Assembly: GCF_001866075.3 (NCBI RefSeq) | Contig: NZ_CP063356.1 | Span: forward strand, 3,462,164 to 3,526,163 | Direction of reading: 5' to 3' | Length of the DNA stretch: 64,000 nt | Source: Anaerobacillus isosaccharinicus | GTDB lineage: Bacteria > Bacillota > Bacilli > Bacillales > Anaerobacillaceae | Shown: piece after piece, positions 61,026-63,398 of the stretch | How positions within the stretch are numbered: position 1 is the stretch's first letter | Layout of the letters: the number at the start of each line of letters is the position of its first letter | Notes under the pieces: model-generated | The model's database searches: none | The model's input: only the letters and a program-made list of their open reading frames with translations | Told to the model about the DNA's origin: nothing | Translations under genes and position numbers: made by a program

Positions 61026-61256
61026 ATGAAGCAACAATCGGTCAACATTCAAGATGTATTTTTAAATCAACTAAGAAAAGAAAGCATTCCAGTTACCGTT
61101 TTTCTTTTAAATGGATTTCAACTAAGAGGTCTTATTAAAGGGTTCGATAACTTTACGGTTATTTTAGAAACTGAAGGTAAACAACAACTAGTTTATAAAC
61201 ATGCGATCTCAACATTCTCGCCACAAAAAAATGTACCTTTAAACCCTGAAGCATAA
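61026..61256 (+). CDS. hfq: RNA chaperone Hfq
   Basis: Hfq is a hexameric Sm-like RNA-binding protein. The 76 residues carry Sm1 ([21 protein letters not shown], split across the beta strands) and Sm2 ([12 protein letters not shown]). The N-terminal [17 protein letters not shown] is typical of Bacilli. The start ATG follows AGAGGAGG. A strong terminator lies between it and the opposing recombinase-like gene. Confidence 0.97.
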
Positions 61257-61262
61257 TATCAG

Positions 61263-61290
61263 AAAAGCTCCCTTATTGGGAGCTTTTTAT
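61263..61290. terminator. Terminator between hfq and the opposing gene
   Basis: AAAAGCTCCC (61263-61272) and GGGAGCTTTT (61278-61287) form a perfect stem with a TTATT loop, then TTTA. The A-run on the left and the T-run on the right suit both hfq and the minus-strand gene ending at 61287. Confidence 0.92.
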
Positions 61291-62255
61291 ACTTGAGTTG
61301 CAAATTGGAAGAATTTCTTTAAAGATATATCTGTTTTTAAACCTAATTGCTGTTGTATCGTACTAATTGATTTACCTGCTAATATTTCAGTTAAGATAAA
61401 CGTGTTTCGTAAATGCTGAGCAGAAATCCCTTTCCTTAAACCACTCCGTTTAACTTCTTTTTGGATCATCCTCTGAATCGCAATATTCGTTAATTGCTTC
61501 GGTTTATTTTCTTCTTCATATACCCAACGATAAGTACCTCTTTGAAAGTCAAAGGCGACAAAAAAAGGATCGTTTTCATGGTATCTTGGCCGAACAGGTT
61601 TTGGTATTGTTTCGTAGTACTTGTACATAACTTGCTTATGTTCTGACGATAAATGAATGGTTTTCTCATGGTCTAATGATGCAACAGTAATGGTGTTTGT
61701 TTCGAAATGAATATGGTTCATTTGCAAATTGGTTAGTTCTTGAAGAGTGAGTCCATGATACAAAAACAAAAGGAATATTGCTTCATTACGGTCAACAATC
61801 AAATGCCTTGTTTCCAATTGTTTTTCTGATAGATCATGAGTTGAATGAAGCGATAAGAATAGTTGTTTCACTTCTTTTTCGTTAAGAAAATCATGAGAAG
61901 TCATAGGGACTTCGCCGCAATCAATTATATTTATCTCAAGAATGGGGTTTTTGGATAAGCCTAAGTTGTCATAATATTTATAGAGTTGATTTAAAACAGT
62001 TAGTACTCTTTTAGTCGTTCTAGGGCTATAGCTTCTTGATTCTGTCAGAATAGATAAATAACGTTGAATGTCATCATGTGTTAAATTAGCCCATGTTACA
62101 AAAGATTGATTTCTTTTTTCGATTTCAAGCCAGATAAAGAAATCTTCAAGATCATATATGTAACGTTTAACTGTTGAAGGTTTACGTTTCTTTTTTACTA
62201 AAGAATATAAATATTCCTTTACAAAGCTAGGCAAAGAGGTCTTAAAGCCATCCAT
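61287..62255 (-). CDS. Tyrosine-recombinase-fold protein lacking catalytic residues
   Basis: This 322-residue protein has a SAM-like core-binding N-terminal domain (about 10-105) and a C-terminal integrase-like domain. Catalytic positions seem lost: the first Arg is Thr (LYHGLTLQEL, T170, usually GLRxSEL); the HxLR box reads AQHLRNTF with Gln280 for His and Arg283 kept; the nucleophile Tyr is Phe (SLKKFFQF, 315-316). The length and fold otherwise match XerC/XerD. The ATG at 62255 has AGGAGGA upstream. The gene is intact, so it is probably maintained for a non-cleaving DNA-binding role. Confidence 0.72.
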   Translation of the reverse strand: MDGFKTSLPSFVKEYLYSLVKKKRKPSTVKRYIYDLEDFFIWLEIEKRNQSFVTWANLTHDDIQRYLSILTESRSYSPRTTKRVLTVLNQLYKYYDNLGLSKNPILEINIIDCGEVPMTSHDFLNEKEVKQLFLSLHSTHDLSEKQLETRHLIVDRNEAIFLLFLYHGLTLQELTNLQMNHIHFETNTITVASLDHEKTIHLSSEHKQVMYKYYETIPKPVRPRYHENDPFFVAFDFQRGTYRWVYEEENKPKQLTNIAIQRMIQKEVKRSGLRKGISAQHLRNTFILTEILAGKSISTIQQQLGLKTDISLKKFFQFATQV

Positions 62256-62295
62256 TTAAATTCCTCCTATCATGGTATAAATGTATTATAACAAT

Positions 62296-62330: not shown

Positions 62331-62447
62331 GGCATTTGTCACCTTTTTTAAGTTTACGAGTATAATGTCATATCGAATATATAGTCATCTTCAATAGTCA
62401 CTGGATAAAACAAAGACTTATAATTCCTTTTTAGGGTGGTGAGGCTC

Positions 62448-63398
62448 TTGGAAAAACCCTTGTCTCTGAAGTCAAGAGGTCAGATTAATATAGTTCTAAA
62501 TCAAAAAGAGTTGAAACAAAGTAGTGAATCGACGATTGGATTTTCAGAAGCAGATCGAGAAAAGCATTATATTCTTGAAAAAATAGAAAAAGAATTAGAG
62601 GAGCTAGTTGGTTTAAAAGAAATGAAACGGTTTATTAAAGAAATTTACGCTTGGCTCTATATTAATAAATGTCGAAAAGAACAAGGATTAAAAACAGGAA
62701 ATCAAGTATTGCATATGATTTTTAAAGGAAATCCAGGCACTGGAAAAACAACCGTCGCTAGATTATTAGCTAAATTATTTAAGGATATGGAAGTTTTATC
62801 TAAAGGACATTTACATGAAGTGGAACGCGCAGATCTAGTTGGCGAATATATCGGTCATACAGCACAAAAAACACGTGACTTAGTTAAAAAATCGGTAGGT
62901 GGTATTCTTTTTATAGACGAAGCTTATAGTCTAGCTAGAGGCGGGGAGAAAGATTTTGGCAAAGAAGCGATTGATACCCTTGTAAAAGCGATGGAAGACC
63001 AGCAACACGACTTTGTTTTAATCCTTGCCGGTTATTCAAGGGAGATGGACCACTTTCTATCATTAAATCCAGGTTTACCTTCAAGGTTTCCAATCACAAT
63101 GAAATTTCCCGATTATACAAATGATGAGCTGATTGAAATTGCTAGAAAAATGGTAGGAGATCGCCAGTATGAGCTTGAAAGAGAAGCTGAATTGAAATTA
63201 CGAGATTATCTACGAAGTCTAAAGGCAGAACGTAGCTTTAACTTTAGCAATGGTAGATTGATCCGAAATATCATTGAAAAAGCGGTGAGAGCACAAGCAG
63301 TAAGACTATTGTATCAAGGAAAGTATGATCGTAAAGCTCTACTTACTTTAACAAAGGACGATATTAAAGTGGAGAAAATGCAAAATGAGGAACTTTAG
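62448..63398 (+). CDS. spoVK: Stage V sporulation protein K (AAA+ ATPase)
   Basis: SpoVK is a CbbX-like AAA+ ATPase needed for spore maturation in the mother cell. The 316-residue protein has Walker A FKGNPGTGKTTVA, Walker B GGILFIDEAYSLARGG, sensor 1 in LILAGYSREMDHFL and the Arg finger region NPGLPSRFP. The chosen start is TTG 62448, giving MEKPLSLKSRGQINI in line with relatives; the GTG at 62436 is inside the GGGTGGTGAGG ribosome-binding site. It is divergent from the recombinase-like gene. Confidence 0.94.
   Translation: MEKPLSLKSRGQINIVLNQKELKQSSESTIGFSEADREKHYILEKIEKELEELVGLKEMKRFIKEIYAWLYINKCRKEQGLKTGNQVLHMIFKGNPGTGKTTVARLLAKLFKDMEVLSKGHLHEVERADLVGEYIGHTAQKTRDLVKKSVGGILFIDEAYSLARGGEKDFGKEAIDTLVKAMEDQQHDFVLILAGYSREMDHFLSLNPGLPSRFPITMKFPDYTNDELIEIARKMVGDRQYELEREAELKLRDYLRSLKAERSFNFSNGRLIRNIIEKAVRAQAVRLLYQGKYDRKALLTLTKDDIKVEKMQNEEL

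Follow-up and report, generated by a model that had tools for sequence, protein, structure and literature searches.

A conserved Bacillales family of Xer-like proteins has lost the recombinase catalytic set and may act by binding DNA

What can a protein with the fold of a tyrosine recombinase do once its catalytic residues are gone? The question is raised by a gene in a stretch of 64,000 nucleotides of Anaerobacillus isosaccharinicus (contig NZ_CP063356.1, positions 3,462,164 to 3,526,163; hereafter the window), which encodes a dead Xer-like protein that we name XLP here. An initial annotation, made from the sequence alone, had described a recombinase fold kept without chemistry and proposed a DNA-binding or structural job, perhaps in sporulation. 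The fold and the lost chemistry stand, the sporulation part is not supported, and DNA binding is the best-precedented role, by analogy with MrpR, the repressor of the SPβ prophage (PMC10516654). We lean slightly towards XLP being a chromosomal, vertically inherited Bacillales family that has lost the recombinase chemistry, kept the DNA clamp and would act as a DNA-binding regulator.

XLP passes the Pfam gathering cut-offs of both SAM_1 (32.4 bits against 22.3) and Phage_integrase (35.6 against 27.1). A structure model built from a 31-sequence alignment shows the two-domain tyrosine-recombinase fold, core-binding and catalytic (predicted local distance difference test, pLDDT, 93.1; predicted template modelling score, pTM, 0.83), in agreement with the XerC/XerD-like length and layout first attributed to the protein. 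An earlier model from four sequences was poor (pLDDT 59.5, pTM 0.36) and was set aside. XLP remains below the NCBIfam equivalog cut-offs of XerA (80.2 bits, cut-off 220), XerD (75.0, 329.6), XerC (71.2, 335.2) and XerS (67.4, 267); the XerC and XerD of the same genome, taken as controls, clear theirs.

To place the active site, XLP was aligned with nine recombinases carrying an intact catalytic set (XerC, XerD and the recombinase L123 of the same genome, and six paralogues of 355-371 residues), two PDB chains and 25 viral integrases. The alignments agree with the residues named beforehand: Arg I falls on Thr170, His II on Gln280 and the nucleophile on Phe315, with no R, H or Y at shifted positions in any of these comparisons. 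Only Arg II (R283) is intact among the five catalytic positions. The acidic active-site residue is also retained (E173), and the hairpin holds no lysine among the six residues preceding K198. Set against the full R-K-H-R-H plus Tyr series of the Xer enzymes, the window protein reads T170, no hairpin K, Q280, R283, L306 and F315.

The same losses recur in relatives. We compared 70 full-length sequences from 16 host families. Besides the window protein and its congeners L110 and L111, the set takes in 67 sequences from other families (L037-L103); three more congeners (G001, G003, G004) were aligned apart and one (G005) was omitted. Arg II is arginine in all 70. At Arg I we find T in 49, S in 11, R in eight, C in one and Q in one; at His II, Q in 55, K in eight, R in three, M in two, H in one and T in one; at His III, L in 45, F in 19, M in five and Y in one; at the nucleophile, Y in 59, F in seven, C in three and H in one. 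Three of the five positions are kept in nine sequences, two in 50 and one in 11, never more. Among these rows Arg I is retained in a single host family, f35 (eight of its ten). The three congeners aligned apart match the others at Arg I, His II, Arg II and His III, and Tyr is present in four of the six intact Anaerobacillus copies. Four sequences of family f62 retain Arg I and Tyr; in these, Ser replaces His II, and either L or M replaces His III. Homologues with the normal catalytic set were sought and none was found among the 70 relatives, the three further congeners and the four f62 rows. Since Tyr is kept in 59 of 70 relatives, the annotated loss of R, H and Y holds broadly for Arg I and both His, and for Tyr only in some lineages, the window's included. 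A family-wide loss of the hairpin lysine was also considered and dropped: GK occurs in 12 of the 70 rows, and some lysine lies within six residues before column 198 in 35, partly off the catalytic place. Across 43 diverse members, 26 columns are invariant.

The gene also keeps its place. It is carried by all seven Anaerobacillus genomes, and in an order-wide sample 80 of 299 genomes gave a match at E≤1e-12: 74 orthologues and six others, comprising an unlinked relative (G032), two relatives of the Priestia plasmid type (G192, G283), a fragment with a stop (G238) and two genomes with a paralogue only (G030, G073). Within the stretches fetched, one of which (L074) starts at a contig end, the convergent flank includes hfq in 66 of the 70 loci (at most 2.4 kb away), and the divergent flank includes spoVK in 68 (at most 4.9 kb). 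The search for the same gene between hfq and spoVK elsewhere, as had been advised, found it in 16 host families, with the losses of Arg I and both His recurring. Genes intervening between XLP and its neighbours, judged by eye at 11 loci, seem unrelated when families are compared.

A class-wide sample of 299 added 26 genomes at E≤1e-40, all of family f62 and all selected for carrying XLP. At the 18 of these loci examined, hflX adjoins XLP every time and no spoVK match was obtained. The loci differ in hfq, which also adjoins XLP in the six of genus g155 and is missing from the nearest 1.5 kb in the 12 of genus g131. A phylum-wide sample of 299 genomes, searched at E≤1e-35, gave no match beyond the genome of the window itself. 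In one f62 locus (L155), the interval from hfq to XLP holds an open reading frame of about 134 codons (1055-1456), encoded on the same strand as XLP. On two contigs of a viral collection (L167, L168), XLP is flanked by spoVK and a collagen-like repeat protein, an arrangement that we take to resemble exosporium genes of the Bacillus cereus group, the group being a guess.

Selection on XLP is purifying. In 18 close pairs, the ratio of non-synonymous to synonymous substitution rates (dN/dS) is 0.038-0.159 for XLP (17 finite values), 0.042-0.160 for miaA (18 finite) and 0.008-0.097 for spoVK (16 finite). Because the locus is fixed, selection is purifying and relatives show the same losses, XLP is not a decaying copy; the initial annotation had judged decay unlikely from the intact frame and ribosome-binding site.

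In two phylogenies, XLP forms a fully supported clade whose stem is long, at 2.3 and 2.15 changes per column. The rows nearest to it are the catalytically intact paralogues of 355-371 residues, with a warning from the tool about long branches. The label 'XerS-like' for these paralogues was abandoned: four of them score 163-189 bits on XerS (cut-off 267), no better than on XerC/XerD. In the first tree, the 11 families that have at least two chromosomal rows group together, and vertical inheritance in Bacillales chromosomes is our best reading. In the second, f35 branches first with modest support (86/83), which would fit its Arg I being an ancestral remnant; the placement of f62 is weak. The tree requires at least 12 changes at Arg I, 13 at His II, 16 at His III, nine at Tyr and none at Arg II. 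We infer from the tree that XLP descends from an active Xer-type enzyme.

Relatives also occur on plasmids. A tblastn search matched 474 plasmid records, 372 of them from Enterococcus; among the matches listed, the Enterococcus rows are nearly all XerS (23-27% identity). Stronger matches come from Bacillaceae C02 (43%, on a record without annotation), Virgibacillus (40%), B. arachidis (37%), Priestia (31-34%) and Rossellomorea (27.5%). Of six plasmid proteins examined, none has Arg I or either His, all retain Arg II, and four have Tyr. The plasmid rows nest inside the XLP clade, those of B. arachidis and Rossellomorea on long branches. In all eight Priestia plasmids opened, the replication initiator precedes the relative by 169-182 nt; these eight are not independent, since they share one replicon type. 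The B. arachidis relative stands between RepFR55 and ParM. On Rossellomorea p6, a phage-plasmid with terminase, portal and capsid genes, it lies 82 nt before ParA and is annotated as hypothetical. No annotated rep or par gene was found within 5 kb of the Virgibacillus copy. Plasmid relatives bear annotations such as site-specific integrase or tyrosine-type recombinase, so these names are no proof of a working or mobile element. We also note a gene for the arbitrium receptor AimR near the dead recombinase on the B. arachidis plasmid (L291, 38335-42945).

Phage records gave nine matches at E≤1e-3, at no more than 28% identity. The family profile found two relatives on viral contigs, the paralogue used as query found none there, and a PHROGs search returned integrase families only. 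Elsewhere in the window's genome, Phage_integrase matches form adjacent trios of equal score, one trio at six places and another at four (examples at C1:759321-761789 and C1:582041-584484), which we presume to resemble recombinase-in-trio elements. A 401-residue 'RaiA' in the PDB (9i5v, chain 14) aligns to the recombinase profile from residue 2 to residue 216 (E 1.8e-9) and is perhaps a fused or misnamed record.

In the window itself (Table 1), Hfq and SpoVK both score above their NCBIfam cut-offs, which confirms that XLP is encoded opposite hfq and divergent from spoVK. The reading frame and ribosome-binding site are intact as described, with an ATG start and no internal stop. The inverted repeat between hfq and XLP is probably a terminator common to both genes; it is visible by eye and absent from the output of a pattern scan.

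Table 1 Features of the XLP locus, in window coordinates
Feature	Position	Strand	Remark
Dead Xer-like protein (XLP), coding sequence	61287..62255	-	322 aa
Ribosome-binding site of XLP, AGGAGG	62263..62268	-	7 nt 5' of ATG, read from sequence
T170 codon, Arg I position	61746..61748	-	R in 8/70 rows
Q280 codon, His II position	61416..61418	-	H in 1/70 rows
R283 codon, Arg II, retained	61407..61409	-	R in 70/70 rows
L306 codon, His III position	61338..61340	-	H in 0/70 rows
F315 codon, nucleophilic Tyr position	61311..61313	-	Y in 59/70 rows
hfq, convergent neighbour	61026..61256	+	NCBIfam match
spoVK, divergent neighbour	62436..63398	+	NCBIfam match
Inverted repeat AAAAGCTCCC-TTATT-GGGAGCTTTT, hfq/XLP interval	61263..61287		Spotted by eye
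Extended -10 element TGTTATAAT, upstream of XLP	62285..62293	-	Perfect in 45/70 rows
Conserved element GGCATTTGTCAC, upstream of spoVK	62331..62342	+	Present also without XLP

Upstream of XLP, a perfect TGnTATAAT occurs within 90 bp in 45 of the 70 rows against 0.2% of shuffles, and at least seven of its eight bases in 56 against 8.5%, with start codons assigned by script. Many of these rows are close kin, and 12 of the 16 families hold at least one perfect copy. Comparing 30 upstream regions from six family groups, we found this element prominent in most groups. We take it to be of sigma-A type, and the XLP promoter looks accordingly sigma-A-like. Upstream of spoVK, many Bacillales have GGCATTTGTCAC followed some 16 nt on by a GTATA-type element (62331-62370, + strand), whether they carry XLP or not, and the two may form a sporulation-sigma promoter. 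As a binding site for XLP, GGCATTTGTCAC was rejected, being present also where XLP is missing. In counts without shuffle control, at least 10 of its 12 bases occur at 23 of the 45 XLP loci that have a short gap (both strands, L084 offering only 38 bases); three of the 23 are circular, since the window and its congeners supplied the pattern. Among 30 other spoVK loci (one strand, 520 bases; those returned for 40 genomes), 18 hold such a match, or 17 of 28 once G032 and G192, with their unlinked or plasmid relative, are removed.

In tyrosine recombinases, Arg II and Tyr are expected to contact the DNA backbone. XLP would embrace DNA as Xer and Cre do, Arg II, plus Tyr where kept, holding the phosphates; it would recognise specific sites and, in the manner of MrpR in SPβ, repress or organise genes or replicon-maintenance regions while leaving the DNA uncut. 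DNA binding, and with it oligomer state and targets, we infer. We favour a site-specific DNA-binding regulator because of the MrpR precedent and because Arg II is always and Tyr usually kept, the residues of the chemistry being lost. Several observations weigh against this. One of the seven Anaerobacillus genomes (G005) has its orthologue split into two overlapping frames (L112/L008), which may be real or an assembly error, and 219 of the 299 order genomes gave no match at E≤1e-12, where at most seven candidates were scored per genome and orthologues may therefore have been missed. In each of the 16 pairs with both values finite, dN/dS is higher for XLP than for spoVK. The good fold model depends on viral integrases in the alignment and is poor without them. 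The searches yielded no operator, and no conserved palindrome was seen by eye upstream of XLP in the six family groups (30 loci). At the Arg II position, MrpR has V257/R258 and no clear arginine, where XLP has one in every row, and MrpR/YopR is not among the 12 PDB sequences reached at E≤0.01 with a profile of 43 XLP members. Lastly, the plasmid neighbours fit a role in replication or segregation equally well.

These neighbours, on the Priestia, B. arachidis and Rossellomorea replicons, would suit, instead of a transcription regulator, an architectural protein that sits on its sites and assists in replication, in segregation or in handling dimers, perhaps as a partner of XerC/XerD without catalysis of its own. 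We hold such replicon maintenance to be possible and clearly the less probable account: the chromosomal copy sits beside hfq and spoVK and not beside a replication or segregation gene, the Virgibacillus copy lacks such company, and adjacency to rep may reflect regulation of rep only. A sporulation-linked DNA-binding protein acting with spoVK, which the divergent arrangement in 68 of 70 loci recommends, is unlikely, and we gave it up as the main explanation. SpoIVA is present in 288 of the 299 order genomes, of which 72 have an XLP orthologue and 216 none found; of the 11 without SpoIVA, two (G137, G256) retain XLP with no spoVK match at the locus and nine have no XLP match. None of the 26 f62 carriers has SpoIVA, which brings the carriers without it to 28. 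With the sigma-A-type -10 element and a spoVK element that is present without XLP, these counts make a sporulation gene improbable. Residual or altered catalysis, for example nicking, could be imagined in lineages keeping more residues, given Tyr in most rows, Arg I in f35 and the four f62 rows, and a possible hairpin lysine in part of the family; it is very improbable when none of the 70 rows has His III and a single one has His II, when the window protein has Phe and Thr, and when Tyr has become F, C or H in 11 rows through at least nine changes. We give least credit of all to a functionless, slowly decaying relic of a mobile integrase. Its patchy presence, the G005 split and the G238 fragment would agree with one, but a dN/dS of 0.04-0.16 lies within the miaA range in the same pairs, where neutrality would bring it near 1, and the invariant columns and the fixed locus in 16 host families also speak against it.

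Coming back to a conserved protein that binds DNA without cutting it, we give about even chances to a fuller account: XLP would be an anciently domesticated host Xer pseudo-enzyme, vertically inherited, with a regulon of its own and serving as DNA-binding regulator or in replicon maintenance, that moved several times to plasmids and phage-plasmids. If so, dead tyrosine recombinases would constitute a general bacterial DNA-binding class, beyond a phage repressor oddity, with XLP as its host-encoded, conserved case. Priestia megaterium, which is culturable and carries a plasmid relative, offers a test system.

Literature searches (titles and abstracts, best matches of larger sets) found no publication about the XLP gene. 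With XerC, XerD, XerA and XerS, XLP has in common the two-domain fold, the length, Arg II and the active-site Glu; unlike them, the window protein lacks Arg I, His II, His III, the hairpin lysine and Tyr. The 'tyrosine-type recombinase/integrase' of Priestia plasmids belongs to the XLP clade and has the same broken set, but is plasmid-borne beside a replication initiator. SroF of phage phi3T is a phage protein, unlike the chromosomal XLP. MrpR (YopR) is described as the master repressor of the SPβ prophage, a DNA-binding protein with a tyrosine-recombinase fold and no recombinase role, which has lost Arg I and both His, acts at the aimR promoter and binds DNA less well as Y304F (PMC10516654). 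In that same account it keeps the hairpin lysine and Tyr; it is a phage gene, whereas XLP is chromosomal at a fixed locus, and neither the prophage location nor, at E≤0.01, a sequence relation is found for XLP. What the two share is a recombinase fold without its catalytic set, with Arg I and both His lost.
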